Shown here piece by piece: positions 9,786 to 28,561 of a stretch of 38,425 bases of DNA. Location: positions 1 through 38,425 of the IMG/VR virus record IMGVR_UViG_3300000553_000113; one strand, written 5' to 3'. Position numbers and translations under genes: made by a program. This DNA comes from a virus. The notes beneath the pieces were generated by a model. It worked only from the letters and a program-made list of their open reading frames with translations. It did not search any database and was not told where the DNA came from. Positions within the stretch are counted from its first letter, which is position 1; every line of letters starts with the position of its first letter.

Positions 9786-10133
9786 ATGGGATCATCACCT
9801 ACACCAGAAATCAACTCTCCTCTAACTCCTGAACAGGAGGCACAGCAAGAAGCTACTTATTCTAGGCTAGAAAAACAGGGAATGAGTGATCAAGGTATTG
9901 TTTCTCCAGAAGAACTGAATAAAGAACTATTAAGTCTTGGATCTGATATTAAAAAAGGTTTCCAAAAGAAAGTTATAGATCCACTGATGGGTAAATCCCC
10001 AAGTGCTAGCCAAGCAGGAACTGCTCGTGAAGCAACTACTGGTGAATTTAAGGGAGTATCTCAAACAAAAGCTCCTACGAAAAGTTTAATTAACACATCG
10101 GCTGAAGAAGCGATGGCAATGGGATTGCAGTAA
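9786..10133 (+). CDS. Small MGSS-starting protein with AMAMGL tail
   Basis: A 115-residue hydrophilic protein beginning MGSSPTPEINSPLTPEQEAQ, with a helical centre and the C-terminus TSAEEAMAMGLQ. That tail resembles the C-termini of the scaffold and of two other small proteins (AID-x-GL). It is the first of four consecutive small genes opening with MG[SG]. No known domain is seen. A minor head or internal virion protein is the best guess, from position between portal and scaffold. Confidence 0.7.
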   Translation: MGSSPTPEINSPLTPEQEAQQEATYSRLEKQGMSDQGIVSPEELNKELLSLGSDIKKGFQKKVIDPLMGKSPSASQAGTAREATTGEFKGVSQTKAPTKSLINTSAEEAMAMGLQ

Positions 10134-10135
10134 TT

Positions 10136-10489
10136 ATGGGTGGGTATAATCCAAATGCTCCTAGTGAATTTAATCGCCTAAATGTTACTCCTAGAGGTGG
10201 TCAGGGAGTAAACATTGAAGCCACTCCTGCGTTTGCGTTTGGTAATACTCAACAACAACAGAACAACCAAGGAGTAAATAAGTTTGCATCTTCATTGGGC
10301 GGTTACCTCGGCCAACAATCTAATTATACTCCCAATCAGAACACTTCAGATCCTCTGAATACATCTGTTGGAGGATATTCTTCTTTGAGTCAGGCACAGC
10401 AAGCCGCACCTTACGCATCTGGATATATTCAAGATCCACAATACGGATATATTCCAGTTGCGGCTCCAGTTGGAAACACCAATACCTAG
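10136..10489 (+). CDS. Small MGG-starting Gln/Asn/Gly/Tyr-rich protein
   Basis: A 117-residue low-complexity protein beginning MGGYNPNAPSEFN and rich in Gln, Asn, Gly and Tyr (NTQQQQNNQGVN, YIQDPQYGYIP). It looks intrinsically disordered and has no predicted enzyme motif. The junction with the previous gene is TAATTATG. Disordered QN-rich proteins of this kind often act in virion interiors. I cannot assign a function. Confidence 0.7.
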   Translation: MGGYNPNAPSEFNRLNVTPRGGQGVNIEATPAFAFGNTQQQQNNQGVNKFASSLGGYLGQQSNYTPNQNTSDPLNTSVGGYSSLSQAQQAAPYASGYIQDPQYGYIPVAAPVGNTNT

Positions 10490-10491
10490 TC

Positions 10492-10917
10492 ATGGGTGGG
10501 GCGAATTCCCAACAGAATACGCAAATCCCATCGGTAACACCAAATGTTATCCGTGGTACGGAGAAAAACGACTACAACACTCCGCTAGGTCATCTTGAAC
10601 CAGCATATCAGATGTATCGTGCTAACCTTGGCGACCAAGGTAACGATCAGAATTACGATTTGCGAGGATATTGGCTCAATAATGTGTTCATGAAGAACAA
10701 TGGTGAGCATGTAAAAGGAGAACATTTCACAGATTTTTACAAAAAACCTAGTCATCCTACTGCTAGCGATGAATCTCAATACATGATTGGCAAACCAGCA
10801 GGACATTGGGTAGACGATCACTCATTTAGACCAGCAAGCGGAACAGATATTAACAAACTACGCACATATCTTCAATCTCCAGAGGGAGAAGGAATGGCAG
10901 TTCAAGATGTAAAATAA
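10492..10917 (+). CDS. MGG-starting protein with the phage YDLRG...KKPxHPT domain
   Basis: A 141-residue protein. After a 20-residue disordered start (MGGANSQQNTQIP) comes QNYDLRGYWLNN, then GEHFTDFYKKPSHPTASDES, then AGHWVDDHSFRPA. This motif chain (YDLRG, H-x-TD-x-YKKPxHPT, G-x-W) is one I recognise from many phage virion-region proteins, alone or fused to internal proteins. Its biochemical role is not known to me. It lies between portal and scaffold. Confidence 0.75.
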   Translation: MGGANSQQNTQIPSVTPNVIRGTEKNDYNTPLGHLEPAYQMYRANLGDQGNDQNYDLRGYWLNNVFMKNNGEHVKGEHFTDFYKKPSHPTASDESQYMIGKPAGHWVDDHSFRPASGTDINKLRTYLQSPEGEGMAVQDVK

Positions 10918-10918
10918 T

Positions 10919-11905
10919 ATGGGATCTTCACCACAACAAGAGAATACAAATCCTGCGTCTGATGCGTATAACTTTTTAACGCCAAGGTCGCCACTACCTC
11001 GTATGCCCCAAATGCAATCTACTCCAGCACAGATTGCGGCAGGAATTTACAACGGAGCTATCCTTCCAACGATGGATTTCATGGCATCACCCACTGGAAT
11101 TGCAACTGCTGGAATTCCAATAGTAGGAGGATTACCAGCAAAAGTAATGCAAACTGCTTTGACTCCAGTAATGGCAAAGAACGCATACGACACAACCAAG
11201 AATGCGGTTAAAACCATCCAGAATCCCAATGCAAGCACTCAAGATATAGCTACAGCAGGATCTGGAGCATTACTAGGAATGGCAGGATTGGGAGTAGGTA
11301 AAGGCAAGTCAAAAGAAATGTCGATTGATGATGCAGTTTCCATAATCAATTCAAATCTAGGAGAAGATCCAAAAGGATTTTTCTCGCCGCATGAGGTAGC
11401 GTTAAAAGCACTCAAACCAGTTTCTCCTGCCATTAAAAAATTACTTACTTCTGATGAAGCAAGAGAAAATGGAGGACAAGATCACAATGTTTATTATGAT
11501 CCAGAGACTAAAACTTGGTTGAAAATGACGGTTGCAGGAAGGTATGGATCACAATCAAAAGACACTCCTGTTGATTATTTGCAAAATTTAAAAAGGCTAG
11601 ACAATCTCAACAATGACGCATTGGGATACAAGGTTGTTGGTACAATCAAAAACGAAAGTGGATTGCCTCCAAGCATTGTAACAAGAGTCAATCACATCGC
11701 AGGAGAACATCCCAAAGATGAAGCTGAAAGGGATGCATTTTTAACTACACATGGGTTTACTCCTGTCGGGTATAATAAGTTTACAATACCTGATGGAAGA
11801 GGCATAATTGAGGACGCACACACACAGAATGTTAAAGTAGTAAATCACCCTGAAGGAGGGACATTTCCAATGTTCATCGACGGATGGGTACAACCAAATG
11901 AATAA
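10919..11905 (+). CDS. MGSS-starting protein with polyvalent-protein kinase-like domain
   Basis: A 328-residue protein. Residues 1-125 are disordered and then hydrophobic Ala/Gly-rich (about 40-125), possibly membrane-active. Residues 175-328 look like the kinase-fold domain of phage polyvalent proteins: GGQDHNVYYDPETKTWLK with a candidate nucleotide-binding Lys near residue 201, DTPVDYLQNLKRLDNLN, SIVTRVNHIAGE, the loop IEDAHTQN (D-x-H-x-x-N, near 300) and FIDGW with a possible metal-binding Asp. Such domains normally sit in very large injected proteins. Here it is stand-alone, in the head cluster. A host-directed phosphotransferase is inference. Confidence 0.65.
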   Translation: MGSSPQQENTNPASDAYNFLTPRSPLPRMPQMQSTPAQIAAGIYNGAILPTMDFMASPTGIATAGIPIVGGLPAKVMQTALTPVMAKNAYDTTKNAVKTIQNPNASTQDIATAGSGALLGMAGLGVGKGKSKEMSIDDAVSIINSNLGEDPKGFFSPHEVALKALKPVSPAIKKLLTSDEARENGGQDHNVYYDPETKTWLKMTVAGRYGSQSKDTPVDYLQNLKRLDNLNNDALGYKVVGTIKNESGLPPSIVTRVNHIAGEHPKDEAERDAFLTTHGFTPVGYNKFTIPDGRGIIEDAHTQNVKVVNHPEGGTFPMFIDGWVQPNE

Positions 11906-12112
11906 ATGAAAAACCAATCAAAGTATCACGACCTAGTTAAATCTTTTGCTCATCAGCATGTCGCAAATTTTCAAGCAATGGACAAAGACGAAGCACACAA
12001 ACAAGCAATCGGTGAGATGCGTCGAGGTCATGAATATCGACAAAAGCAAGAGGCAGAGAAAAACAGAACTACAAAGAATTCAATAAAAGCAATCGACGCT
12101 GGATTGAAATAA
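11906..12112 (+). CDS. 68-residue charged protein with AIDAGLK tail
   Basis: The start codon follows the upstream TAA directly. The protein is highly charged and helical (YHDLVKSFAHQHVANFQ, RGHEYRQKQEAEKNR) and ends NSIKAIDAGLK, the same tail type as the scaffold C-terminus. No domain is known to me. Short, helical, with a scaffold-like tail, it could be a procapsid guest protein. Confidence 0.65.
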   Translation: MKNQSKYHDLVKSFAHQHVANFQAMDKDEAHKQAIGEMRRGHEYRQKQEAEKNRTTKNSIKAIDAGLK

Positions 12113-12115
12113 TTT

Positions 12116-12163
12116 AGTTGACAGGTCGTTTACCTTGTCAGAAAACCTACGGGTCAACTGACA
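12116..12163 (+). ncRNA. Structured intergenic RNA with competing stems
   Basis: The 65-base gap holds a hairpin TGACAGGT / ACC-t-TGTCA (12119-12140, 8 bp with one bulged T and loop CGTTT). Two alternatives overlap it: AGTTGAC (12116-12122) pairs with GTCAACT (12153-12159), and TGTCAG (12136-12141) pairs with CTGACA (12158-12163). These pairings are mutually exclusive, as in an RNA switch. It precedes the gene at 12178. A perfect TTGACA is present, but no -10 follows at the right distance. I do not recognise a known riboswitch. Confidence 0.4.
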
Positions 12164-12177
12164 CATAAAAATAAATT

Positions 12178-12417
12178 ATGAAATGGGAAACATCTGATTC
12201 TGCTCGGTTTCGTGAATATCATCAAAAATCTGGAGGACGCCTCTTGTCTTACCTTTCCTCGTTGATCCCATTGACAACTGGAAAAACAATCGAAGAAGTT
12301 GCACTGGAAGCAAAATATAAAGAAGGCGCAGAGTTCATCATTAGGCAGATGTATGACATCCTCAACGATAGGGAAAACCAAGATGATGCGGCTAATGCTT
12401 CATTCGTATCAATGTAA
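12178..12417 (+). CDS. 79-residue protein upstream of the scaffold
   Basis: A small soluble protein, MKWETSDSARFREYHQKSG...LEAKYKEGAEFIIRQMYDIL, with a central helical hairpin and an acidic tail. Genes of this size commonly sit just before the scaffold in portal-scaffold-capsid clusters, but I cannot name the family. It follows the structured gap and ends four bases before the scaffold start, so it may be translated with it. Confidence 0.7.
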   Translation: MKWETSDSARFREYHQKSGGRLLSYLSSLIPLTTGKTIEEVALEAKYKEGAEFIIRQMYDILNDRENQDDAANASFVSM

Positions 12418-12420
12418 TTT

Positions 12421-13755
12421 ATGGAAGAAAACGACAACATAGTACCAGAACCGAGTGTTACCAATAGTAGCTTCGGAGCACCATCACTTGATCCAGATCG
12501 TCTTACTGACGATGTTCACGCATCAATAGATGCGGCATTGGATCAAGCAGAAGCAGAAACACAACCAGAACAACAACTGATTCGTCATTCAGAATCATAC
12601 AACGAAAACAACTATGAACGCATTACGGAAACTAACAATTCAAACACTCCGCAACCTGCACCAGATCCTGCCTCTCAAGTTGAGGAACAGGTTAGCACTA
12701 CCAATGTTCAAACTGATTCTGCGAATCTCACCGGAGATGTATCTGGACATTCTCTCAACGGAACGGAAGCCAAGCAAATCGAAATCGATCCAGAAATTCT
12801 GTCCATCGAACAACCGAGGAACTTGTCGGAGAAAAACCAAAACAACTGGCGTAAGCTCCAAGAAACGGCAACGACCTACAAGCAAGAAGCTCAAGCATTA
12901 AAGCAACAACTTCAGCAGTCAGCACAGCAAGCAATTCCTCCAGATTACGAGGAGCTAAAAACATTCAGGAAGATTTTTGACATCAAGAACGATCCTGAAT
13001 TTCGTAGCAAGTATGCTGAACCGATCCAGAATGCTCATAACAACATTATCGGGATCATGAAGCAGAATGGTGCTAGCGATGAACTGATTGCTGGCATCGA
13101 AAAGGCAGGAGGGATCGACAAGATCGACAAGGATTGGTTTGCACAGAACATTCTTAACAAACTGCCTTTCGATGACAAAAAGATGATGGAGGATGACTAT
13201 GTTGCTCTCAAAAAGCTGAAGCAACAGCAGGAAGGCGAGATTAAGAATGCCGCAGAGAATGGAGAGAAGATCCTAGCGGAGAAGGAAACACAGGCAAAGA
13301 ATTGGTTTCAAAACGAAAACACGGCAATCCGTGATTATGTCGAAGAAATCACAAAGCAAGCTCCTTGGGCTAGGTATCAAGAAATTCCAGAGAATGCCAC
13401 GCAGGATCAGATTGAAAAAATCCAACAGCACAATCAGAATGTGCAAAAGTTGGAAACCAAGTTCAACTCTGCTCTTTGGCCTCAAACTGCACAGCAGAGA
13501 GCATCCATAGCAGCAGCCGCAGTATTGAGCGACAAGCTAACTGGAGATGTGCAATCACTAGAGAGCAAACTTGCAACTCTTGATGCACAACTGAAGAAAG
13601 TAACGGAAGAAAACAATCGCTTGAAAGGTGCAAGCAGAATGCCAAAACAGAATGTGCAGACTCCGAATAAGAGCAAAAACTATTCGGTCAATGACAGGAT
13701 AAAGATGAATGCCAGTGATGCCATTGATCTTGGTCTTGATGAAGCAGGTCTGTAA
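12421..13755 (+). CDS. Scaffolding protein
   Basis: A 444-residue acidic, Gln/Glu-rich protein without cysteine. A disordered N-terminal 130 residues is followed by coiled coils (TATTYKQEAQALKQQLQQSA at about 150; SLESKLATLDAQLKKVTEEN at about 380). The basic linker PKQNVQTPNKSKNYSVNDR and a C-terminal helix NASDAIDLGLDEAGL end the chain. Scaffolds line the inside of procapsids and leave before or during packaging; their C-terminus usually contacts the coat. Position between portal and capsid fits. Unusually, six sugar and methyl-transfer genes separate it from the capsid gene. Its tail is shared with three other proteins here. Confidence 0.8.
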   Translation: MEENDNIVPEPSVTNSSFGAPSLDPDRLTDDVHASIDAALDQAEAETQPEQQLIRHSESYNENNYERITETNNSNTPQPAPDPASQVEEQVSTTNVQTDSANLTGDVSGHSLNGTEAKQIEIDPEILSIEQPRNLSEKNQNNWRKLQETATTYKQEAQALKQQLQQSAQQAIPPDYEELKTFRKIFDIKNDPEFRSKYAEPIQNAHNNIIGIMKQNGASDELIAGIEKAGGIDKIDKDWFAQNILNKLPFDDKKMMEDDYVALKKLKQQQEGEIKNAAENGEKILAEKETQAKNWFQNENTAIRDYVEEITKQAPWARYQEIPENATQDQIEKIQQHNQNVQKLETKFNSALWPQTAQQRASIAAAAVLSDKLTGDVQSLESKLATLDAQLKKVTEENNRLKGASRMPKQNVQTPNKSKNYSVNDRIKMNASDAIDLGLDEAGL

Positions 13756-13757
13756 TT

Positions 13758-14822
13758 ATGGCAATTCTTGATCCTGTAAGCACTCCGATGGTGGAGAGGA
13801 CTCTCCGCGCGTTAGATTCTGCTAATCCATTCATGACTCCTCCTGTAAGGGTTAGGAGAATGGACGGAACACCAGTAAAGCAAGAAACTCCTGTAGCTCC
13901 ACCTGCACCTCCTGTCGAAGCAACCTCACCAGTTGCACCAACAGAAGATAAAAACGCTCTAGCAGAGGTTTTAGAACCATTGGAAGTCATTCCTGACGAT
14001 GTTGCAGAGTTCCTAGCACAGCAAGCATCACAAGAAGAAGCTCCTGTGCCAGATAAATCATCAGTTTCCGTAGAAGAGGAATTTGAAAACCCTGTCAAAG
14101 AATCACGCACAAAAGAGGGATTGCCATCGTATCGTTGCGAGTTTGAAGGCAGGGACATTTTCATGGGATGGCCGTGGTACAAAACTACCAATCCTGTAAC
14201 TGCGGCAATCGCTTTCTCGGTAGGTCAGGATTTTGGAAAAGACAAGCTACGGATGGATATGTCAATCGGAGACAGCAAGATTGAACACGCAAGGAATAGG
14301 CTAGCACACAAATTCCTTGAAACAGATGCCAAGTGGTTGCTGATGATTGACGATGACATCATACCTTCCATTGGAAGACCAGTATGGATGAGGCATTGGG
14401 TTCATGCCGCAAGGACACTTCAAGACATACCTCTTCAAAGGCATTTCTTGCACAGGCTAATCGGAGCAAACAAGACTCTAGTAGCAGGAGCATATTTTGG
14501 TCGGCAGGAGGGAGGAGCAATCATGTGCAGTGACCTGACGCTAGCTCCTCGTGCAAAAGCATACGAAGATAAGGTTCTTCCTGTTGATTGGGTTGCAACA
14601 GGATGCATGCTTATCCATCGCAAGGTGTTCCAAGACATTCGTGCAAAATATGGAGACAAACTTGTAGTAAAGGCAGTTGACTACGATTATGACTACTTCC
14701 GCATCGACGATAGTGTAGGTGGTGAGGATGTAGCATTCTGCAAAAAAGCAAAAGCATCAGGACATCAACCACACATTGACATCGGAATCCCAATCTTCCA
14801 CCTCGGATACAAGACATACTAA
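13758..14822 (+). CDS. GT-A-type glycosyltransferase with Pro-rich N-terminal extension
   Basis: Residues 1-125 are Pro/Ala/Glu-rich and disordered. Residues 130-354 look like a GT-A fold: ITNP-like start region, DMSIGDSKIEHARNRLA, KWLLMIDDDIIP with the DxD-type metal site at residues 198-200, then VDWVATGCMLIHRKVF and GGEDVAFCKKAKASGHQP ending in a possible metal-binding His in IFHLG. It would transfer a sugar from a nucleotide sugar. The long disordered extension is unusual for such enzymes and may tether it to a virion or scaffold partner. First gene of the sugar cassette. Confidence 0.75.
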   Translation: MAILDPVSTPMVERTLRALDSANPFMTPPVRVRRMDGTPVKQETPVAPPAPPVEATSPVAPTEDKNALAEVLEPLEVIPDDVAEFLAQQASQEEAPVPDKSSVSVEEEFENPVKESRTKEGLPSYRCEFEGRDIFMGWPWYKTTNPVTAAIAFSVGQDFGKDKLRMDMSIGDSKIEHARNRLAHKFLETDAKWLLMIDDDIIPSIGRPVWMRHWVHAARTLQDIPLQRHFLHRLIGANKTLVAGAYFGRQEGGAIMCSDLTLAPRAKAYEDKVLPVDWVATGCMLIHRKVFQDIRAKYGDKLVVKAVDYDYDYFRIDDSVGGEDVAFCKKAKASGHQPHIDIGIPIFHLGYKTY

Positions 14823-15406
14823 TGAAAAAAATCTATTCTTACTACGAGTCAATCGCTACTGCTAACCAACCGGAAGAGTTTACTTGTTCTAATTGGTGGA
14901 AGAAAAGCTGGACGGAGAACGGATGGGAACCAATCATGCTAAATCGCACGCACGCACAGGGAAGTCCTCTTTACAACAAGTTGATTCAGAAGATCATGAA
15001 CTGCAATCTTGGGTTGCCTCCAGAGTTGGCAGGTAGATTCCACTGGTTTTCGGCTAGGTACGCAAGATTGTGTGCTTTGCATGCGGCAGGAGGAGGTTGG
15101 ATGTGTGATTATGATGTCCTGAACAAAGGTTTTAAGCCAGAACAGGCAGATAACACTGAAAGTGATGGAACTTTGCAGATTAACGCAGGATCAGCATACA
15201 TTTTTTACGCAACAAAGGATCATTTAGCAAATGCAATTAAAAAAATTGTAAATTCTGATCTTTGTGATAAAAAAAGTTTCTTTACCGAGGATAAGATTCT
15301 TCAAATTAAGGGAGGATTAAAACCGATTTGCAAACTTTTGGTACACGCAAAAAGTAAGAATGGAGTTCCGAGGTCAGGAATCATGCAAAATTCTTACGAA
15401 AAATGA
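14822..15406 (+). CDS. GT32-like glycosyltransferase (DxD sugar-binding type)
   Basis: A 194-residue protein. RYARLCALHAAGGGWMCDYD holds the motif GG-x4-DxD (D96 and D98), which matches the sugar-binding region of OCH1/GT32-type transferases; FHWFSARYARL precedes it as in the family. Start overlaps the previous stop as TAATG and the stop overlaps the next start as ATGA, so it is translationally coupled on both sides. The donor and acceptor are unknown. It is shorter than cellular members but keeps the core. Confidence 0.7.
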   Translation: MKKIYSYYESIATANQPEEFTCSNWWKKSWTENGWEPIMLNRTHAQGSPLYNKLIQKIMNCNLGLPPELAGRFHWFSARYARLCALHAAGGGWMCDYDVLNKGFKPEQADNTESDGTLQINAGSAYIFYATKDHLANAIKKIVNSDLCDKKSFFTEDKILQIKGGLKPICKLLVHAKSKNGVPRSGIMQNSYEK

Positions 15407-16131
15407 TTAGTCCTTTCCAAAAAAAGACAACTTTTATTCACACTGGTCACATAGGTGACATAATTGCGTTTCTTCCGATATATTACATGATTGGAGGTAC
15501 GCATTTAGTGATTTGTGATGATGCTGGCATGGAACCGATGTCAGGATATAAATACAATTCGTTAAAACCACTTCTTGAAAGTCAAGGCATACCAGTATCG
15601 TTTAATGATGCGGTTTGCGTAGATTATGATATGTCAGGATGGAGAGAATGTTATAGCGATTACATTTCTTTGACCGATTCTCAAGCTAGATATGTCAATC
15701 TTGTGCCAAGGAACGGAAAACTTACCATAAATCAACCTTGGATCAGAGTAGAAGATGATCCTAACGGCAAAGATAGGGTAATCTTTAACAGAACACCAAG
15801 ATACAGGAATCCTGAATTTAATTGGAAGAAAGTCCTAAAACATTTCGGCAAAAAGGCACTCTTTGTAGGAAGAAAAGAAGAGCATGATGATTTTTGCAAA
15901 GAAGTTGGAAATATAGAATACTATCCAACTGAAAATTGCCTTGATGTTGCAAAAGTAATTTCGGCATCAGATTTTTTTGTCGGAAATCAATCAAGTTCTT
16001 TCTGGATAGCGGCAGGATTACGAAAGCATTTGCTTCAGGAAACATTTGCTCCAGCACCAAACAGCATCGTAGAATACCAAGGTGCTTGGTATTGCTTGGA
16101 TGGTAAAATAGATTTTGATAAGTTAGCGTAA
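15403..16131 (+). CDS. GT-B/GT9-like glycosyltransferase
   Basis: A 242-residue protein starting with TFIHTGHIGDIIAFLPI, the N-terminal loop of heptosyltransferase-type enzymes (G-x-IGD-x-x-x-x-P). A C-terminal half follows with RVIFNRTPRYR, KKALFVGRKEEH, DVAKVISASDFFVGNQSSS and LRKHLLQETFAPAPNS, typical of a GT-B donor-binding domain. Overlapping starts and stops place it in the same operon as its neighbours. The sugar is not deducible. Confidence 0.7.
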   Translation: MISPFQKKTTFIHTGHIGDIIAFLPIYYMIGGTHLVICDDAGMEPMSGYKYNSLKPLLESQGIPVSFNDAVCVDYDMSGWRECYSDYISLTDSQARYVNLVPRNGKLTINQPWIRVEDDPNGKDRVIFNRTPRYRNPEFNWKKVLKHFGKKALFVGRKEEHDDFCKEVGNIEYYPTENCLDVAKVISASDFFVGNQSSSFWIAAGLRKHLLQETFAPAPNSIVEYQGAWYCLDGKIDFDKLA

Positions 16132-17120
16132 TGAATTTTTACTGCACATCTTTAAGCAAAGACAAAGTAATCGCATACGACAGCACGGAGATAACAAAAC
16201 ATTTTCACAAAACTTCACTGAATGAAGCGGATCTAGTCTGCTTGGAAATAACCAAACGAGACTCTTTCATATTTGATGAAATAGAATTTAATTCGACGCA
16301 AGGAAAAGAATTCGTTGTAATTGATTTTACAGAATATGGATATGACAACACTGATGTTGATCATTTTTACGGAGTAAATACATCAGAACATGCTGGAAAA
16401 TTTCCAAACACAGAGTATCTAAAGCTAGATGAAGCATTGAAGAAACGCAAAATAAAGTGTTACTTCAAAAGAGAGTTGCCTAGTAACCACGCAAAAGCTG
16501 AATTCACTATTTACCCGATAGAATATCCTTGTTTGCATAGAGAAGAACCAGAAAACAACTATGAATCATTTTGTGGAAGGTCAACGGATGTTTTCTTTAA
16601 TTGGGGATGGAGCAATCCCTCTCGTCCAAAGCTACACGCAGAATTTTACAATTCGGCACATCCGTTGAACTATTCAGTCGTTAGTCAAAGAAGTCATCTT
16701 GAAGGTCAGATCAAAGATTCAAGGGGATTGCCAGTGATATTCACTCAATTTATACCTCATCACTCAAGATTACACATGGATGAGGTTTTACATCTTCAGA
16801 GATCGTCCAGAATAAGCGTTAGCCTTAATGGATGCGGAGTAAAATGTTTCAGACATGCCGAATCACCTGCTAATTCTTTAATGGCTTTACAAGAAAACTC
16901 TTTGAAGTGGACTCACGAATGGACAGATGAAAACGCAATCATTTTGCCAAACAAACCTAATGGTGAAATAGACGCAAAGGCATCTGTAGAAAAGATCATC
17001 AACTCACTCAAAAACAAAGAGGAATTGTATGCTAGATATTTGAATTGCGTCAGGACAAACAACAAATATAGAAAAGAGAATTACGCAAACCAAATCCTGT
17101 CTCTCATTTCTGCATCTTAA
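16131..17120 (+). CDS. Glycosyltransferase-like protein (exostosin-like C-terminal region)
   Basis: A 329-residue protein. The N-terminal half is a divergent alpha/beta domain. The C-terminal half has LQRSSRISVSLNGCGVKCFR, then HAESPANSLMALQENSL and ENAIILP, resembling the donor-binding end of GT-B or exostosin-like enzymes, where an Arg and a Glu lie in similar places. It has no signal peptide. It continues the coupled cassette (TAATG overlap). The family call is less certain than for its neighbours. Confidence 0.55.
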   Translation: MNFYCTSLSKDKVIAYDSTEITKHFHKTSLNEADLVCLEITKRDSFIFDEIEFNSTQGKEFVVIDFTEYGYDNTDVDHFYGVNTSEHAGKFPNTEYLKLDEALKKRKIKCYFKRELPSNHAKAEFTIYPIEYPCLHREEPENNYESFCGRSTDVFFNWGWSNPSRPKLHAEFYNSAHPLNYSVVSQRSHLEGQIKDSRGLPVIFTQFIPHHSRLHMDEVLHLQRSSRISVSLNGCGVKCFRHAESPANSLMALQENSLKWTHEWTDENAIILPNKPNGEIDAKASVEKIINSLKNKEELYARYLNCVRTNNKYRKENYANQILSLISAS

Positions 17121-17128
17121 TAAAATAC

Positions 17129-17827
17129 ATGGAAAAGATTATTTATGACATCGGGGCAAATAATGGTGATGATCTTGCGTATTATTTGAAAAAGGCAGAT
17201 GTTGTCGTTGCTTGCGAAGCAGATCCAAATTTATGTGACTTCATGGGAGAAAAGTTCCAAAAAGAAGTTGCTGACGGAAGGTTGATAATAGAAAACTTTG
17301 TAATCTCTGAAGGGATAGAATCAGAAAGAGTTCCTTTTTATAGGCATCTTCAAGCAAATATCTTGAATCAGTTTCCAGAACCGAGTCAGGACAAAATTCA
17401 TGAATATGAAAAAATATATCTCCCTGCAAAGACTGCCTCATCAGTAATAAAGAAATACGGAGATCCTCATTACATTAAAATCGATGTAGAATTTTACGAT
17501 CAAGCAATTTTAAGGGATCTATTCAAAAATGAAATTCGACCAGAATACATATCTGCCGAGTCTCACAATATTGAAGTATTCTGTATTCTAGTTGCAGTTG
17601 GAAACTACAAGAATTTCAAACTAATAGACGGACAATCTGTCAGTGACATCTATAAAAACCATTTCATCAAGACCAATGATGGGCTAACAGAAGAGATTAC
17701 ATTCCCTCATCATGCCGCAGGTCCGTTTGGTGATGACATCAAAGGAGAATGGTTAGATCAAAACGATTTCATAAATCTATTAGTTTCAGAAAAGCTAGGA
17801 TGGAAGGATATACACGCAAAAAAGTGA
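17129..17827 (+). CDS. FkbM-family methyltransferase
   Basis: A 232-residue class I methyltransferase. The SAM-binding loop is DIGANNGDD at residues 7-15, followed by VVACEADPN (acidic end of beta-2) and HYIKIDVEFYD, the FkbM hallmark KID-x-E. FkbM enzymes O-methylate sugars or small molecules. With the neighbouring glycosyltransferases it most likely caps a glycan. It lacks DNA-methylase motifs such as PCQ or DPPY. It follows the upstream gene by eight bases. Confidence 0.8.
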   Translation: MEKIIYDIGANNGDDLAYYLKKADVVVACEADPNLCDFMGEKFQKEVADGRLIIENFVISEGIESERVPFYRHLQANILNQFPEPSQDKIHEYEKIYLPAKTASSVIKKYGDPHYIKIDVEFYDQAILRDLFKNEIRPEYISAESHNIEVFCILVAVGNYKNFKLIDGQSVSDIYKNHFIKTNDGLTEEITFPHHAAGPFGDDIKGEWLDQNDFINLLVSEKLGWKDIHAKK

Positions 17828-17831
17828 AACC

Positions 17832-18500
17832 ATGAAAGAGTACCCAAATTACATCATCACTCCTGAAAAAAGCTATAAAAGCATAGCGTTTGATGATCCA
17901 AACGAGATATACAACGATCAATACTGGTCGGCACATCAGAATCACTCAACGATTGATGAGCAAGTAACCAATGTCATAGGCAAAAATGAGTTGGTAAAAG
18001 CAGAAATATGCTATGGAAATCCAAAAAGGATATTGGAGATTGCGTGTGCTCCTGCATATCTCCTTGGAGAACTTGAAAAGGATTTTGAATGTCATGGAAT
18101 CGAAATTGATCCTACATACAAAGATGAAATGCAAAAATATTGCCCTAATAGCACTTTGCATTTTGGTTTTTTCCCACAAGTTACACACGATTGGTCTGAT
18201 AACTTTGTCTGCAACATTATTGCTCTGGATGTGTTAGAGCATGTGGAGGATGGGATAGGATTCCTTAAAGAGTGTCATAGGTTATTGGCAAACAACGGAA
18301 AAATCATCATTCAATCACCAATCATTTTGGAGGATAAAGAAATGGTGGATAGGATGTTTTTCGCTAGAGAGCATATTTGGATTTACGATTACTTGCACCT
18401 CCAGAAATTGATGGAAGAAGCAGGATTTGAAGTCACAGGGTTCAGTAGATTCCAAGTAGGTCACGAACAGGTTGTAGGAATTTGTAAAAAAAATAGTTGA
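17832..18500 (+). CDS. Class I SAM-dependent methyltransferase
   Basis: A 222-residue protein with RILEIACAPAYLLGELEKDF (SAM loop), HGIEID (acidic beta-2 end) and IIALDVLEHVEDGIGFLKEC, the pattern of Methyltransf_11/23-type enzymes. Substrate unknown; sugar or small-molecule methylation is the best fit with the cassette. It is the last gene before the capsid leader, and its TGA overlaps the start of the inverted-repeat leader. Confidence 0.75.
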   Translation: MKEYPNYIITPEKSYKSIAFDDPNEIYNDQYWSAHQNHSTIDEQVTNVIGKNELVKAEICYGNPKRILEIACAPAYLLGELEKDFECHGIEIDPTYKDEMQKYCPNSTLHFGFFPQVTHDWSDNFVCNIIALDVLEHVEDGIGFLKECHRLLANNGKIIIQSPIILEDKEMVDRMFFAREHIWIYDYLHLQKLMEEAGFEVTGFSRFQVGHEQVVGICKKNS

Positions 18501-18725: not shown

Positions 18726-18738
18726 CAAACAAAACAAA

Positions 18739-20115
18739 ATGGCAAGTCCCGGATATGGCGTAAACCCGTCACAAGTAACGACTGGTAGTCCAAACTACGG
18801 ATTCGTTCCTAACACCGAAACTAATGCGGCAGTATATGCTAATACTTTCGCAGGAGCAACGGCACAAAACAACTTTACCACTAGCGGAATCACCACTGGC
18901 GGTAATAACTACAGCAACTGCATTCCACTGGCGACGATCCAGAACTTTGCATCGAAGGATGTAAACAGGATCATCGGTCAGATTGCGAAAGTCCTTGCTC
19001 GTAAGAGTCCCTATATCAACTCCATTGATGGTGGTACGATTCCCAATGTCTCTGATGTTGTTCGTACGGTCGTTGAGGAAATGGCAGTCCCTGCCGCTTC
19101 CCTTGCGGCTCCATCCTTCGTGGATGACACTACTCTTTGCGGAGTTGGTGCTACTCCCGATCAGGTTGGTTCAACCGAGTATCAGTTCAGCCTCCAGACG
19201 CTCCGTGGTGCTGGTCCGAGGATCTGCGTCAAGCAAGCTCGTACCGCATTCAAGGGTAGCTACCTTCAGGCTCAAGTCTCGCTTGAAAAGACCATCCTTC
19301 AAATCATCAATGCTGACATCCGCTACCAGTACCTGATTCAGTCGGGCATCAAGTATGTTGTTAACAGCACGCAGTCCTTCACTTCAAACCTGAAGGGTGA
19401 CATGCAACAGATCGGCACGCAGTTCGCACAGATTCTTCCTGATTCTGCTCTGAACTTCAAGACGCTCTATCGCATCGGCACTTTCCTTCGTGAAGAGATG
19501 CTGGCTGAACCTTTCGCCTCCAAGGAGGGAGAGTTCTTCCAAGTGATGCTGTCTGCTGACGCTATCGAAAACATCCGCAACGATGCCGATGTCAAAGAGG
19601 ATCTCCTCTATTTGACTGCTGGTTCGTTCAAGTTGGGTGAGGACAGCATCAGTGGCTATCAGTTCATGGGTTATCGTGGGTTCGCCTTCGGTATTGATCA
19701 GCAACCTCTTCGTGCCTCTGGATTCGGTTCCGATGGCAATCTGGTTCTCATCAACCCAATCATCAGCACCGCAGTTACGAACGGATTCGCTCAACGCCGC
19801 AACCCTACTTGGGTGAACGCAGTGTACGAGGTCGGTTTCGTGATCGCTGGAGATGCCTTCAAGCGTCTCGTTCCAGAGCAGTATGTTGGAGAAGGAACTT
19901 TCCGTTTTGCTCCTCAACTCGCTATGGGCGAACTTGAGTGGACATACTTCCGTGATAACGATTGCAACCTGTATGGTGACTTCGGTCAGCATATCTACCA
20001 GATTCAGCGTGCGATCCAACCGATCCGTCCGCAGAATGTCTGTGCGATCCTCTATAAGCGTTGCCCATTTGATGGTGCACCTCTTCCTTGCTCGACCTCT
20101 TCGACAGGTCTGTAA
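18739..20115 (+). CDS. Major capsid protein
   Basis: A 458-residue protein that forms the head shell. It has a Gly/Asn/Thr-rich N-terminal arm (residues 1-60), a long helix region after NCIPLATIQNF, and large mixed alpha/beta parts (AFKGSYLQAQVSLEKTI, EEMLAEPFASKEGEFFQV). It ends with several cysteines near CPFDGAPLPCS. Evidence is position after the scaffold, size, a long structured leader, and codon use shifted to GGT, CGT, CTC, ATC and AAG, unlike its AT-leaning neighbours, as expected for the most expressed gene. No Shine-Dalgarno; the start is preceded by AAACAAAACAAA. Confidence 0.85.
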   Translation: MASPGYGVNPSQVTTGSPNYGFVPNTETNAAVYANTFAGATAQNNFTTSGITTGGNNYSNCIPLATIQNFASKDVNRIIGQIAKVLARKSPYINSIDGGTIPNVSDVVRTVVEEMAVPAASLAAPSFVDDTTLCGVGATPDQVGSTEYQFSLQTLRGAGPRICVKQARTAFKGSYLQAQVSLEKTILQIINADIRYQYLIQSGIKYVVNSTQSFTSNLKGDMQQIGTQFAQILPDSALNFKTLYRIGTFLREEMLAEPFASKEGEFFQVMLSADAIENIRNDADVKEDLLYLTAGSFKLGEDSISGYQFMGYRGFAFGIDQQPLRASGFGSDGNLVLINPIISTAVTNGFAQRRNPTWVNAVYEVGFVIAGDAFKRLVPEQYVGEGTFRFAPQLAMGELEWTYFRDNDCNLYGDFGQHIYQIQRAIQPIRPQNVCAILYKRCPFDGAPLPCSTSSTGL

Positions 20116-20119
20116 TAGG

Positions 20120-20178
20120 TAGTTAGTTATCGGTGATCGATGCAGGATAAAACTTGCATCGGTCACCTCAACTGATTA
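20120..20178 (+). other. 22-bp stem-loop after the capsid gene
   Basis: The outer arm 20120-20128 pairs with 20170-20178 (9 bp, two G-U). After a short internal loop the inner arm GGTGATCGATGCA (20132-20144) pairs with TGCATCGGTCACC (20155-20167), 13 bp with one G-U, around a 10-base loop. No T-tract follows, so it is not a standard intrinsic terminator. It probably stabilises the capsid mRNA 3' end, attenuates read-through or marks a processing site. Confidence 0.65.
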
Positions 20179-20200
20179 GCTTTCACAAAACTTTACTACG

Positions 20201-20779: not shown

Positions 20780-20783
20780 TACC

Positions 20784-21137
20784 ATGTCACAATTCCCTGA
20801 AATATCTTCCAATCTCTCGACTGCTAATTTTAGAGCAAGCGTCCTCACTTTCCTTAAAAATGGAATTGAAGTAGACAATACCAGTGGTGGTCCGCTTACC
20901 GTAAAAGATCACAATGCGGCGATTTCAGGATCAACATTTTTTAACGACACAACTGCTCGCACAGGAAACTGGTATGCCATTCAGGTGCTAGCTACAGCAG
21001 TGTTTACAACGCTTACTGATTCTACTCGCACAGGTACTGCCATTAGCACATTCAGCTTCCCTGCTGGAACTATTTTCTTTGGTAACTTCTCTGCTATCAC
21101 GCTGGCAAGCGGAACGATTATCGCATACAACGCTTAA
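20784..21137 (+). CDS. Small beta-rich decoration-like protein
   Basis: A 117-residue protein; the end TGNWYAIQVLATAVFTTLTD...FPAGTIFFGNFSAITLASG..IAYNA resembles a compact beta domain I have seen in phage capsid and fibre regions (W-x-AIQV, PAGT-x-x-x-GxF-x-x-ITLxSG). Position right after the jelly-roll gene suggests a capsid or fibre accessory. No enzymatic motif. Confidence 0.65.
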   Translation: MSQFPEISSNLSTANFRASVLTFLKNGIEVDNTSGGPLTVKDHNAAISGSTFFNDTTARTGNWYAIQVLATAVFTTLTDSTRTGTAISTFSFPAGTIFFGNFSAITLASGTIIAYNA

Positions 21138-21140
21138 ACC

Positions 21141-22718: not shown

Positions 22719-22721
22719 TTT

Positions 22722-23618: not shown

Positions 23619-23779
23619 TGCATTCTTCAGGACAAACACCTCTCCTTGGAGCCGCAACGAGTGCTAGTTTTTTATTGTTCTCGTTTGTCCCTGAAGTCCC
23701 TCCTCTTGCTCAATGGATCTGCCTTTTGCTGTCAGCAACGGCATCTGTCCTAACGATCATCAAGCAGTCACACAAATGA
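23618..23779 (+). CDS. 53-residue membrane protein, holin-like
   Basis: A short gene whose ATG overlaps the upstream stop (TAATG) and whose TGA overlaps the next start (ATGA). It encodes MHSSGQTPLLGAATSASFLL followed by a turn (PEVPP) and a second hydrophobic segment WICLLLSATASVLTII, ending KQSHK. Two membrane helices, small size and place at the head of the lysis block suit a class II holin. The family is not recognised. Confidence 0.65.
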   Translation: MHSSGQTPLLGAATSASFLLFSFVPEVPPLAQWICLLLSATASVLTIIKQSHK

Positions 23780-23967
23780 AAAAGACTTGGGAAGCATTAC
23801 TTCCATTTCTAGGAACAATACTAATGATTCTAGGAGGTTGTACGCATGTCCCATCTTCAATTTCAGTAGCTCCAGCAGTAGACAACATTTCTGCGGTTCA
23901 AGGAAATCTTTCTGCGGTTGACAGCAAGTCAGTCGTGATCGAACAATGGCTGAAAACACAGAAATGA
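23776..23967 (+). CDS. Rz1-like outer-membrane spanin lipoprotein
   Basis: A 63-residue protein with a lipoprotein signal: MKKTW, hydrophobic LLPFLGTILMI, lipobox LGGC with C22. A short periplasmic part follows (NISAVQGNLSAVDSKSVVIE). The ATG at 23776 overlaps the upstream stop; a longer frame from 23713 lacks any signal ahead of this point. Outer-membrane spanin subunits are small lipoproteins like this and help fuse inner and outer membranes at lysis, which implies a host with two membranes. Confidence 0.65.
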   Translation: MKKTWEALLPFLGTILMILGGCTHVPSSISVAPAVDNISAVQGNLSAVDSKSVVIEQWLKTQK

Positions 23968-24401
23968 AAAGAATAGCATTAGCAATTTTATTTGTCATGG
24001 CAGTCGGTGTTCAAGCTACAACGATAACTAAAAATGACATTATCAAGACGATTGAACATCAGCGTCAACTAGTCCACCAAGCTCAAGATGAAGCGTCTGC
24101 CGCCAAGCAGGAGCTTGTGGTAGTTCAGGAAGCAGTCAACGCACAGACGGCGAAGCTACATAACACTGAAAACCAACTAGACATCACTCGCAAGGAGTTG
24201 TCAGATGTTCGTCATCATTTCCACCTATTGCTATTGATCTGCTCTAGTTGCATTGGGTTCATTGTGTTTGCCAGCATTCAGAGGTTTTCTTCAATTCTCC
24301 TTGCCTTCTATCCTCCTGCACTAGCCTCTGACTGGTTTATCTCTATCGGTGCTGGAATTGTAGCAGGAGGGGTGGCATGGAGCCTTCTAGGTCATCTGTA
24401 G
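23964..24401 (+). CDS. Coiled-coil protein with signal peptide and C-terminal membrane segments, possible inner spanin
   Basis: The preferred start 23964 overlaps the lipoprotein stop as ATGA and gives 145 residues: signal peptide MKRIALAILFVMAVGVQA, a coiled coil (HQAQDEASAAKQELVVVQEA, KLHNTENQLDITRKELSDV) and two hydrophobic segments at the end (LLLLICSSCIGFIVF, FISIGAGIVAGGVAWSLL). An ATG at 23946 would add six residues ahead of the signal. The coiled coil next to a lipoprotein suits a spanin partner, but the membrane segments are at the opposite end from lambda Rz. Function is inference. Confidence 0.6.
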   Translation: MKRIALAILFVMAVGVQATTITKNDIIKTIEHQRQLVHQAQDEASAAKQELVVVQEAVNAQTAKLHNTENQLDITRKELSDVRHHFHLLLLICSSCIGFIVFASIQRFSSILLAFYPPALASDWFISIGAGIVAGGVAWSLLGHL

Positions 24402-24766
24402 TCAAGAACAAGCTAGAGCAAAAGCCACTTGGCTCAAAGAAAGCGATCTATGCAATCTTTGCCTCGGTTTCTGTCCTGATTGTTTTCATTGGTTCTGCGT
24501 TTTTGATCCTAACCCACGCAGAGGTGGCAAAAGATATTGTGGAATTGGCGAATCTTGTAGTTCTTTTCTTCGGAGCGATAACAACAACCCTAATCACAGG
24601 ACAAGCAGCAATGGATTGGAAGGCAATATCGGCACTTCAACACATGGATCAGGATTCTAATGAAAGAATAGAAAGCAATCAGGCATTACCTGAATACGAA
24701 TCTAACACAACGGAGCTTCGGCGTGATCCAAAAGACTATTTGATGTCACATGACACCTCGTTTTAA
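24377..24766 (+). CDS. Holin-like two-helix membrane protein
   Basis: A 129-residue protein with a short basic N-terminus, helix one AIYAIFASVSVLIVFIGSAF, helix two LANLVVLFFGAITTTLI and a hydrophilic acidic C-terminus. It overlaps the upstream gene by 25 bases and the endolysin by 17. Size, topology and direct contact with the endolysin gene suggest the holin; the 53-residue protein upstream is the competing candidate. Confidence 0.6.
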   Translation: MEPSRSSVVKNKLEQKPLGSKKAIYAIFASVSVLIVFIGSAFLILTHAEVAKDIVELANLVVLFFGAITTTLITGQAAMDWKAISALQHMDQDSNERIESNQALPEYESNTTELRRDPKDYLMSHDTSF

Positions 24767-25241
24767 GAATTTTCTGCCATTCATATTTGAGCATGAATGC
24801 GAATTTGCAAAGGGGCATTATGGCGACTACAACTATGTCATATCTGAAGAAGTTCAGGGAGATGACGGAGGAGTAACAAAGTGGGGATGTGACTACAGAG
24901 AATTTAGCCAACCTCCATTTAATCTAACCGAGGACGATATACGCAATCTTACAATGCAAGGTGCTACTAATTTGTATTGGCAGAATTGGAGTAGATTGAA
25001 TGTCGAGCAATTACAATATCCATTAGGAGAAGTGTGGTTTAATTGCAAAGTGGTTTGCGGAAAACACCAAGCAAATCTAATACTAGAACGAACAGGACAA
25101 AACGCACTTGCATTTATAAATGACCAAAAACGAGTCAACTCATTGATTGTAAAGGCACATCCGAATGATCAGAAATTTTTAGCAGGGTGGAACAATAGGC
25201 TTGACGATCTTATTAAATATCTGCATCTCCAACAGGCGTGA
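24750..25241 (+). CDS. Endolysin, GH108-type N-acetylmuramidase
   Basis: A 163-residue enzyme that cuts peptidoglycan at the end of infection. FLPFIFEHECEFAKGHYGDY carries the catalytic Glu (E16 in the HEGG-equivalent HECE), followed by QGDDGGVTKWGCDYREF, the DpGG-x-TxxG motif of the GH108 family. The C-terminal half (VWFNCKVVCGKHQANLIL ... FLAGWNNRLDDLIKYL) matches the peptidoglycan-binding domain usually joined to GH108. No signal peptide, so it relies on a holin. Confidence 0.8.
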   Translation: MTPRFKNFLPFIFEHECEFAKGHYGDYNYVISEEVQGDDGGVTKWGCDYREFSQPPFNLTEDDIRNLTMQGATNLYWQNWSRLNVEQLQYPLGEVWFNCKVVCGKHQANLILERTGQNALAFINDQKRVNSLIVKAHPNDQKFLAGWNNRLDDLIKYLHLQQA

Positions 25242-25504
25242 ACCATCCCAAACCTGAATCCGTGACGCAAGAAGCATGGGATGCGTTAAGGAATTCAATG
25301 CTAATCATTACGGAACATTTTTCCAATGTGGCAATTTTTGTGAATTGGGTAAATGACGATGGAGAAACAAAGCACGGAGAAATATTGGAAGGTAATGCAT
25401 TCGCATTACGCCATCATATTGAGAAATACCTAGATGGTGATTTCCTGCCAGATGAAATTGATGCTGAAGATGAAGATGATAAACCAAAACAAACGAAAAT
25501 ATGA
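25238..25504 (+). CDS. 88-residue acidic hypothetical protein
   Basis: Starts at a GTG that overlaps the endolysin TGA (GTGA) and ends at an ATGA overlap with the phosphoesterase. It has NHPKPESVTQEAWDALRN, a central beta part FVNWVNDDGETKHGEILE and an acidic tail DAEDEDDKPKQT. No membrane segment. The family is not recognised, and coupling on both sides is all that can be said. Confidence 0.65.
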   Translation: MNHPKPESVTQEAWDALRNSMLIITEHFSNVAIFVNWVNDDGETKHGEILEGNAFALRHHIEKYLDGDFLPDEIDAEDEDDKPKQTKI

Positions 25505-26394
25505 TAAAAATAAAAAAGAAGAGTTGGAAATTTAGTGAGTCAAATAGGAATGTTCATGTATTAGACATAAATCTTCCCTATGTAGGAGATGAGCAGTGGG
25601 TATTGCTACAAACTGATTGTCATTGGGACAATCCAAAGTGTGACAGGGATAAAATGAAAGAGCATCTTGATTTAGCACTGGAAAGGAACGCACCAGTAAT
25701 TGATGCAGGAGATTTTTTCTGTGCCATGCAGGGAAAGTACGATAAACGCTCAAGCAAAAAGGATCTGCGACCAGAACACGCAACAGGTAACTACCTTGAT
25801 TCACTGGTCAACACTGCGGCAGAGTGGCTAGATCCTTACAAGCATTTGTTGACCGTCAGAGGCAACGGAAATCACGAGTCAGCAATTCAAAAAAACCATG
25901 AGACTGATCTGAATGAAAGATTGGCAGAAAGGTTGCGAGTAGCAGGTGGAATCGCTAGGCGTGGTGGGTATTCAGGATACATACGTTTTTCAACAACTTG
26001 TGGAGGCAGAACAACATCACACAAACTCTGGTATTTCCACGGATCAGGAGGTGGCGGTCCTGTAACTCGTGGCGTAATTCAAACATCACGACAGGCAGTA
26101 TATATTGCTGATGCTGATTTTGTTTTCACAGGACATACTCATGATAGTTGGGTAATGCCAATCGAAAGAATCAAACTTGGAAGTGCAGACAACATTCAGC
26201 GATTTAGGCAGACGCATATAAAGGGAGCAGGATACAAAGAAGAATTTACAGATGGGTTTGGAGGATGGCATGTTGAAAGAGGTGGTGCTCCTAAACCAGT
26301 TGGAGCATGGTGGATGAGATTTCACTTTCCAAAAGGCACGCTAGAAAGCGGTCACACAAAGACAGCAGAAGTTGAATTAACAGAAGCAAGATAA
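25501..26394 (+). CDS. Calcineurin-like metallophosphoesterase
   Basis: A 297-residue enzyme with the full metal-binding set: D39-x-H41 in TDCHW, G70-D71 in DAGDFF, G-N-H-E at 123-126 (GNGNHE), H180 in YFHGSGG and G-H-T-H at 211-214. Such enzymes hydrolyse phosphodiesters or phosphomonoesters with two metals; phage versions have unknown substrates. It separates the lysis block from the tail-fibre gene. A link to nucleic acid processing or to cleaving cyclic-nucleotide defence signals is possible but unproven. Confidence 0.85.
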   Translation: MIKIKKKSWKFSESNRNVHVLDINLPYVGDEQWVLLQTDCHWDNPKCDRDKMKEHLDLALERNAPVIDAGDFFCAMQGKYDKRSSKKDLRPEHATGNYLDSLVNTAAEWLDPYKHLLTVRGNGNHESAIQKNHETDLNERLAERLRVAGGIARRGGYSGYIRFSTTCGGRTTSHKLWYFHGSGGGGPVTRGVIQTSRQAVYIADADFVFTGHTHDSWVMPIERIKLGSADNIQRFRQTHIKGAGYKEEFTDGFGGWHVERGGAPKPVGAWWMRFHFPKGTLESGHTKTAEVELTEAR

Positions 26395-26443
26395 TTGAAA
26401 ATCGTCTTTACAACCTAGCACCAAGACAATAGGATTCGGCATT

Positions 26444-28129
26444 ATGTCATGTGGATGCAATACTAATAGCGGATATGGTTATGGAGGGATTTGCCCTGAC
26501 ATTCCTTATCCTTCTATATCTGCTGAATCAGTACCTTCAGCAATCAACAACCTAACCTATTCTCTTTATGGGTTGGTTACGAAGAGCATCGTAAATGGTC
26601 AGATCGTTTGGACTACTCCTTGTGATGGGACATACCCTAATTTTACAGGCACAATCAACGGATTGACTCGCAACGCTGGTGAGGGACTTCTTTGCTACAT
26701 CCTGCGTGGAATGAACACTCTTGTTACTCAAACACCAACATTTACAAGTGTTACGGCAGGGAACTATATTGCGAATGAATCACTCTTGCTTCCTTCCAAC
26801 ATTGGAGCATATAGCTATGGAACTTTAAGCTACAACGACACAAATGTTGTTTCTAGCTACTCTGCAAGCGTTAATTCATACCTTCAGAGTGTTTTCCAAA
26901 ACACCAGTAACGGATATTTGGCATCTACTGACATTGTCCTTTCAAACGACAAGGGAACTTACTCAACATATTATGGAAATCTAGGAATCAATAGTTCTGG
27001 ATTCAATTTGTTTACTGGAGTGGGAAGCATTTCAGGAACAACGATGACAATTACTTCAGTTGTCAGTGGTGGAATTGCTGTAGGAATGAACATTACTATT
27101 CCATTACATGGTTTTGTCGTTACTGCACAGACAAGTGGAACTACTGGTGGAATTGGAACTTACACAATCACTAATCCTGATGGTGCATCTGCTGGTGCAG
27201 GAACAACTCTAACTGGAGCAGGAATCGGTAGTTTCAATATCGCTAATGCAACATATTTGTCTGCAACTAATGGTGATCTTGTTATAGGAACAACTGGCAC
27301 TAACGCAATTCATTTTGCTATTGCAGGAGGGTCTGCAACGCCAACAATATCATCAACAAATGCCACATACGATGCTTTAACTATTGGCACTGATAATAGT
27401 TTAACATTTTATGGGAAAATTATATTAAGAAATACTATTTCAGGAAATACTGGAGTAGGTGTTTCAGGTAATATTTTCACAAGTGGAGGAACTACAAATC
27501 CTCCTTCTTGGACTGATCCAACAACTATTACTATTGGAACTGCTACGAACATCGCAGGAGGAACAGCAGGAAGTGTTCCTTATCAAACTGCGGCAGGTGC
27601 TACCAATCAACTATCAATCGGAACTGCTGGACAAATCCTTGTAGTAAATAGCGGAGCAACTGCTCCTTCTTGGGGAACAGATCACTCTGGAATCACAACA
27701 TCAGTTTCTGGTGCATCAGCAGGATATGTCGGAGAAGTAATCAAACTCACTCTTGTTGGAGCAGGCACAATGAGTTCTGGAACAACTGGAACGCTTTTTA
27801 ACTCAACAAGTCTTACAGCAGGTGATTGGGAAATTTACGGAACTGCAAGTGTTGCGGCAACTGGATTGTCAGTTGCAGGGAACACAAACATTTTAATTGG
27901 TGTGACTGCTGCTGGATCAACCACTGCTCCTGTCGCTGGTCAAAGGTTCTCTTTCCCAATAATTACTGCTCTTACCACTACATCTTTTGGTTTTGAGCAA
28001 GCACTTCCTCCAATTCAGTATCTTCAAACGACTGCAAATGCCACTATTTATTTGCAATATACAATGCCAACCTTTTCAGCAGGATCAGCAACCGCTAACG
28101 CAAACATTTGGGCACGCAGAATGCGATAA
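26444..28129 (+). CDS. Tail fibre protein
   Basis: A 561-residue Gly/Thr/Ser/Asn-rich beta protein. It starts MSCGCNTNSGYGYGGICPD (Cys-rich), then an attachment-like region, then SSYSASVNSYLQSVFQNTSN...DIVLSNDKGTYSTYYGNLGINSSGF and NGDLVIGTTGTNAIHFA, a pattern I know from marine phage tail fibres and baseplate spikes. The rear third is a different beta domain (EVIKLTLVGAGTMSSGTTGT) ending NIWARRMR. It probably binds the host surface. Preceded by a 49-base gap without an evident site. Confidence 0.7.
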   Translation: MSCGCNTNSGYGYGGICPDIPYPSISAESVPSAINNLTYSLYGLVTKSIVNGQIVWTTPCDGTYPNFTGTINGLTRNAGEGLLCYILRGMNTLVTQTPTFTSVTAGNYIANESLLLPSNIGAYSYGTLSYNDTNVVSSYSASVNSYLQSVFQNTSNGYLASTDIVLSNDKGTYSTYYGNLGINSSGFNLFTGVGSISGTTMTITSVVSGGIAVGMNITIPLHGFVVTAQTSGTTGGIGTYTITNPDGASAGAGTTLTGAGIGSFNIANATYLSATNGDLVIGTTGTNAIHFAIAGGSATPTISSTNATYDALTIGTDNSLTFYGKIILRNTISGNTGVGVSGNIFTSGGTTNPPSWTDPTTITIGTATNIAGGTAGSVPYQTAAGATNQLSIGTAGQILVVNSGATAPSWGTDHSGITTSVSGASAGYVGEVIKLTLVGAGTMSSGTTGTLFNSTSLTAGDWEIYGTASVAATGLSVAGNTNILIGVTAAGSTTAPVAGQRFSFPIITALTTTSFGFEQALPPIQYLQTTANATIYLQYTMPTFSAGSATANANIWARRMR

Positions 28130-28141
28130 AAAAACAAAACT

Positions 28142-28561
28142 ATGGGATACGAAACAGAAAAAATGGAAGTGCCAGAAGATTTCACTGATCTTGGCGAGGA
28201 CATGACGAAAATGCACGGAATGCATGCAGTAGATGCATCTGCCGCCGCAGAGAAAAACCATGACACTCCTAAAGTTTACTATCCAGAACTGCATTTTGAG
28301 GGAGAACACGCTCAACACCTTGCTAAACACCTAAAGGATCACGGAACTGCTGTTATTCACTACAAAAAAGTAAGTGAAAGCACTCACCATGATACTCGTC
28401 ATGGAAAAAGTGAGACTCGTCACAAGGTTGGAATCCAAATTCACGGAATTCGTGCAGAGGAAGCCAAAGGTGATAAGATGACTCGGGAAACAGAAAAAGA
28501 ACCATTGAGCGATTCTGATGCAATCGACAAGGGATTAGAAGCAGCATCAGAAAACGCATAA
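28142..28561 (+). CDS. Staple-like small capsid protein with AIDKGL tail
   Basis: A 139-residue His-rich protein. KVYYPELHFEGEHAQHLAKH followed by a beta stretch AVIHYKKVSEST...KVGIQIHGIRA resembles small phage proteins annotated as capsid staple proteins (YP-x-L start, short barrel). The C-terminus LSDSDAIDKGLEAASENA repeats the scaffold tail motif. The gene lies between the fibre and the neck adaptor. The staple match is from memory of short motifs and is moderate; the shared tail supports a head location. Confidence 0.55.
   Translation: MGYETEKMEVPEDFTDLGEDMTKMHGMHAVDASAAAEKNHDTPKVYYPELHFEGEHAQHLAKHLKDHGTAVIHYKKVSESTHHDTRHGKSETRHKVGIQIHGIRAEEAKGDKMTRETEKEPLSDSDAIDKGLEAASENA

Follow-up and report, generated by a model that had tools for sequence, protein, structure and literature searches.

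A conserved C-terminal tail on a putative scaffolding protein and on several unrelated proteins of an uncultured bacterial virus family

Why would a putative scaffolding protein end in the same short peptide as several proteins that otherwise bear no resemblance to it? The locus that raises this question is in IMG/VR virus record IMGVR_UViG_3300000553_000113, of which 38,425 bases—referred to here as the window—were analyzed; the tail-bearing genes, the untagged cassette genes, and the portal-like and capsid candidate genes are on the + strand. The initial annotation had picked out four proteins with a shared tail and described their bodies as otherwise unrelated; all four C-termini were found at the genes to which it had assigned them, and comparison of the tailless bodies with one another using BLASTP gave nothing better than an E-value of 0.39.

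The locus and its relatives

In the window the head genes run from a terminase-like and a portal-like gene through a cassette encoding small proteins to the genes for a 79-aa protein and a putative scaffold, followed by transferase-like genes and a capsid candidate. Because the family libraries are almost silent, gene functions were assigned from position, size, and sequence character; family searches with the scaffold, the portal-like protein, and the guests (mosaic proteins encoded between portal and scaffold; those with the tail start with MGG in nearly all cases) gave Kinase-PolyVal as the sole significant match, and PDB profile searches gave nothing significant. The portal-like protein (7360–9783), recognized from its position, its length of about 800 aa, and synteny in relatives, forms the left border of the guest cassette. 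The putative scaffolding protein (444 aa; 12421–13755) lies between the portal-like gene and the capsid candidate in relatives, and consists of an acidic N-terminal part (19% D+E, 3% K+R), a middle part, a coiled-coil-like stretch, a flexible linker, and the tail; it has no significant match in PHROGs, Pfam, or PDB, and its gene order and composition fit a tailed-phage scaffolding protein. The major capsid protein candidate (18739–20115) is a highly conserved protein of the locus with no Pfam or PDB sequence match; the best 11 Foldseek matches to its poor model (mean pLDDT 42.6) are all phage capsids, at E-values of 0.48 to 1.7, which gives only a hint of a capsid fold.

Several other features were observed. 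A group of genes resembling sugar and methyl transferases (13758–18500) separates the scaffold from the capsid candidate, and such genes hold the same place in relatives. Two adjacent, overlapping genes (3076–3723 and 3695–4306) are related to each other and fall in the same cluster; by our own reading they are ParB-like. Conserved C-terminal peptides of other kinds are present in the portal-like protein (NPP[RK]PxTA), in the 79-aa protein (12178–12417; DD[AS]S..F.[TS]M), and, in relatives, in the families of 28566–28928 (DxFLxGIAxEGNKR) and 36766–37341 (GI[TK]FGG).

The source group is an uncultured family of bacterial viruses. Searches of 50,697 named phage records by tblastn with the scaffold, capsid candidate, portal-like, and beta-hairpin proteins found nothing, the terminase gave weak matches only (below 60% identity, the best rows at 26 to 32%), and no occurrence of the capsid candidate in bacterial genomes was confirmed. 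The comparisons below use 369 related loci (labels such as L004, L009, L031, L041, L046, L053, L063, and L064 denote single relatives), together with a set of 80 relatives fetched by means of the capsid candidate and a set of 23 whole records (57–71 kb); for the later counts, genes in relatives were called on the + strand. The relatives share ancestry, and all counts and the Fisher value of the matrix test are therefore descriptive and do not represent independent events.

A conserved tail confined to C-termini

The scaffold tail is RIKMNASDAIDLGLDEAGL (13696–13755, including the stop codon), and no other 11-column window of the scaffold alignment is as conserved as its segment DAIDLGLDEAG (3.96 bits, the mean being 2.73). 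When scaffolds were collected by homology of their bodies, the tail was present in 92 of 93 unique sequences, the exception reading AIDLGI. Among 108 unique scaffolds with the tail—a set gathered by the tail itself—the corresponding DNA takes the form of 83 distinct 18-mers; since the codons of the tail differ freely, selection acts on the protein. The same variation in codons rules out an element acting in DNA or RNA at the ends of genes.

AIDxGL proper ends three proteins of the window: the putative scaffold, a 68-aa protein starting at 11906, and a 139-aa protein starting at 28142. A degenerate nucleotide pattern for AIDxGL matches the window three times (at 12089, 13720, and 28520, all at gene ends) compared with 0.04 matches expected from shuffled sequence, and a control pattern has no matches in the window. 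AIDxGL is never internal to a called gene in the 80 relatives. Unique scaffold tails alone were used to build a 10-column matrix, with which all non-scaffold proteins of the 369 loci were then scored; at a threshold of at least 14 bits there were 56 matches no more than 25 aa from a C-terminus and one elsewhere, among 660,824 positions. The pattern is present in all 23 whole records, and the places that were read are the scaffold, the beta-hairpin protein described below, cassette guests, and a few chance frames; the extra AIDxGL-coding matches, when read, were five beta-hairpin proteins and four chance frames. Scanning 2.9 million viral contigs for SYDAI[DEKN]xGL yielded 34 stretches, 26 of which are C-terminal tails of the same kind (an MGG start is visible in 25, and the remaining one is cut by the contig end) and eight of which are chance occurrences, four meeting a stop codon within the motif and four lying inside other proteins. 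The shuffles and the confinement to C-termini rule out a chance origin. The tail, of the general form [DE]AI[DEN]xGL, is thus a real, shared, and strongly conserved C-terminal tag.

The 139-aa protein (28142–28561) lies about 15 kb from the scaffold. Its tail, SDSDAIDKGLEAASENA (28508–28561 with the stop codon), scores 21.3 bits against the scaffold-derived matrix. In an AlphaFold2 model it is predicted to form a beta-hairpin (residues 70–86 and 89–105) followed by a low-confidence linker (109–123) and a separate helix (127–136) that corresponds to the tag; the last two blocks have mean pLDDT values of 54 and 61. The name 'staple' given to it in the initial annotation found no support in any library or fold search, the latter giving no match at an E-value of 0.001 or better and a best match of 0.023 to an unnamed protein; we refer to it here as the beta-hairpin protein. 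It is present in 21 of the 23 whole records, with a strict tail in 17 of the 21 and in 20 of the 21 if one substitution is allowed (three of the non-strict tails read DEIExGL and one is decayed). The tail is better conserved (3.68 bits) than the folded domain (3.20 bits) and much more so than the linker preceding it (2.19 bits). Up to about 20 mostly acidic residues extend beyond the motif, unlike in the scaffold, a difference that counts against the docking reading set out below.

Exchangeable bodies between portal and scaffold

Within the window, the 68-aa guest (11906–12112) ends in NSIKAIDAGLK (12077–12112 with the stop codon; 18.9 bits against the scaffold-derived matrix). It has no MGG start, and phmmer finds only itself among the fetched loci. 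The 115-aa mosaic guest directly after the portal-like gene (9786–10133) has an MGS start and a degenerate tail, TSAEEAMAMGLQ (10095–10133 with the stop codon). At 5.9 bits its version, SAEEAMAMGL, would not count by itself, and we accept it as a degenerate member because homologues carry clear versions: those in L009 (L009_4737; SSQQAIESGLR), L041 (L041_4308; SMNAIDEGL), and L046 (L046_4436; SADDEIEMGL) are tagged MGG guests, and the tail is decayed in L053 (ITAEEAMRDL). The other three cassette proteins with MGG or MGS starts (10136–10489, 10492–10917, and 10919–11905) are untagged; the last of these carries the match to Kinase-PolyVal (Pfam PF18762) at an E-value of 1e-8.

With their tails removed, the tag-bearing bodies of the relatives fall into groups that do not match the scaffold body. 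In L063, three guest genes in a row encode unrelated bodies that end SSYDAINAGL, followed by further residues, SSYDVINAEL (decayed), and SSYEAIDVGLK, the tagged scaffold being next; in L064, which has the same genes, the tail is carried by all three of these guests (decayed in one), by the scaffold, and by the beta-hairpin protein. A zincin-like protein with an invariant HEVGH motif (L031, 2303–3247; L063, 3422–4336; and relatives) has both an MGG start and the tag, and although it was found on 11 contigs only, the tail is present in all 11 copies. The collection scan likewise found one tail on proteins ranging in length from 85 to 222 aa, and one N-terminal module with different tails.

The start of these proteins is also distinctive. 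MGG begins 139 of 3,568 unique genes, whereas GG follows 102 of 15,223 internal methionines, a roughly six-fold lower frequency. Within the portal-to-scaffold interval an MGG or MGS start is present in 33 of 34 strongly tagged proteins versus 47 of 233 others. About half of the MGG guests of this interval (45 of 80, including three of the window's own) have no recognizable tag, so not every cassette protein requires one. In the window an MG[GS] N-terminus is common to the proteins starting at 9786, 10136, 10492, 10919, 35774, and 36766. The late proteins at 35774 and 36766 look ejection-like by position, which suggests that the cassette guests belong with them to one class of internal proteins. 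A further element, the box N-x-[FY]-G-R-D-x-S, recurs before the tail in many cassette proteins (for example, guests of L004, L009, and L046), and in untagged ones too.

The guests are mostly encoded immediately upstream of the scaffold, with tails shuffled between one guest and another, as would be expected if scaffold 3' ends had been copied into neighboring genes by chance or recombination and left there without function. Such leftovers should not give the outcome of the matrix test, a tail better conserved than the linker, divergence at the codon level, or a tagged beta-hairpin gene 15 kb away, and we regard this origin as extremely unlikely.

A processing or degradation signal by which the scaffold is cleared—through cutting by a prohead protease or recognition by a host protease—is also very improbable. 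LxE is the site of the T4 prohead protease, and the scaffold sequence GLDEA(G/L) resembles it; some guests, moreover, contain HExxH. However, the LxE-A pattern is missing from most guests, the HExxH guest occurs in few genomes, and the motif lies up to about 20 aa from the C-terminus, unlike a degron that requires a free end. The 23 whole records contain no match to either prohead protease family, Peptidase_S78 or S77, the S77 model being of uncertain sensitivity, as it scored above its cut-off in no control genome.

Possible binding partners of the tail

The identity and conservation of the tail, its confinement to C-termini, its modularity, and the constraint on it at the protein level are direct observations. 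It is kept in homologues (scaffolds, nearly all beta-hairpin proteins, and every zincin-like guest) and moves between unrelated bodies. Such behavior is in keeping with a docking tag and speaks against chance, an element in the DNA, and a degron that acts from a free C-terminus. We consider it probable, at roughly 60%, that the tail is a docking motif for the inner surface of the head, used by scaffold and cargo alike. The capsid-docking tag proposed in the initial annotation is thereby partly supported: the tail is conserved and modular, while the capsid partner and packaging into the procapsid we infer.

The series S/D-x-x-D-A-I-D-x-G-L resembles a capped short helix closed by a glycine and a hydrophobic residue. 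The tail would thus be a short helix ending in Gly-Leu, placed after a flexible linker, and binding of it inside the head is proposed by analogy with the scaffold C-termini of 80alpha, P22, and herpesviruses, which bind coat. It would bind one site inside the growing head, most likely on the inner face of the major capsid protein, so that the scaffold could hold coat subunits through it during assembly; guests with the same tail would compete for a minority of the scaffold's sites and become enclosed in the procapsid. Those with MGG starts would probably be ejected later with the DNA, and the beta-hairpin protein may remain as an inner head component.

A close likeness is that to bacteriophage 80alpha, whose scaffold folds its 16 C-terminal residues into a helix and hook that occupy a cleft of the capsid protein; the satellite protein CpmB of SaPI1 uses the same RIIK motif (PMC5644958). 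There, as here, otherwise different proteins have a short common C-terminal motif and a preceding helix; in that case docking in one capsid-protein cleft, between the A and P domains, has been demonstrated. The 80alpha case involves two proteins, one of a phage and one of its parasite, while here one phage tags its own scaffold and several types of body, one of them enzyme-like; nor is the RIIK sequence found here. The guests might similarly be assembly regulators that compete for the scaffold's site as CpmB does: CpmB and the 80alpha scaffold have the C-terminal docking motif in common (PMC5644958), and small guests such as the 68-aa protein are similar in size to CpmB (72 residues). Some guests, however, are enzyme-sized with HExxH and their bodies are highly variable mosaics, so cargo fits better and a regulatory role is improbable.

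Docking on another part of the head is a somewhat stronger contender, although still unlikely: the tail could bind the portal or the scaffold core, in which case guests and scaffold would be brought to the portal vertex and not to coat. The guest cassette adjoins the portal-like gene, and the P22 scaffold hook, which binds coat, contacts the portal too, with P22 ejection proteins thought to dock on scaffold (PMC12005531). A partner in the scaffold core would nevertheless leave the scaffold with no need to carry that tail itself, the beta-hairpin protein is encoded far from the cassette, and the copy number of the portal is presumably low for a tail carried on every scaffold subunit.

Other systems compare with docking on the inner head surface to differing degrees. 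The herpesvirus scaffold binds the major capsid protein through its C-terminus, which the UL26 protease and the UL26.5 scaffold share (PMC12474303); these identical C-termini come from overlapping genes, whereas the tails here are encoded by separate genes with diverged codons. In T4 a capsid targeting sequence directs unrelated proteins into the prohead, as proposed here for the tail, and it too is short and terminal; it is N-terminal on internal proteins, however, and is removed by the head protease (PMC7697877), whereas the tail is C-terminal and the 23 whole records gave no match to the prohead protease families S77 and S78. The targeting (cargo-loading) peptides of family 1 encapsulins, with the consensus SDGSLGIGSLKRS, are likewise short, modular, and C-terminal on unrelated proteins, and the encapsulin shell is related to phage capsids (PMC8346489). 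When compared by eye their consensus is a different motif from the tails, and encapsulins have no scaffold, portal, or genome, while here the scaffold carries the tail as well; the shell is not an encapsulin either, as the capsid candidate stands within a tailed-phage gene order and matches nothing in Pfam or PDB by sequence. The tail likely works as known cargo and scaffold docking peptides do, by analogy, and by sequence is a member of none of these groups. A search of open papers turned up these precedents but no account of the tail, which is weak evidence of novelty.

A further proposal, which we put forward tentatively and at somewhat less than even odds, is a modular cargo system in which an MGG start, an exchangeable body (the zincin-like peptidase included), and a scaffold-type tail together would serve head loading and delivery to the host. 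Encapsulins are thought to derive from HK97-type phages, and such a system, if true, would parallel in a phage the way in which encapsulins load cargo. If these readings are right, members of a natural phage family mark their cargo with the docking peptide of their own scaffold. This would offer a testable parallel to cargo loading by encapsulins, a sequence rule for predicting head-cargo genes among unknown genes, and an address tag by which proteins could be loaded into phage shells.
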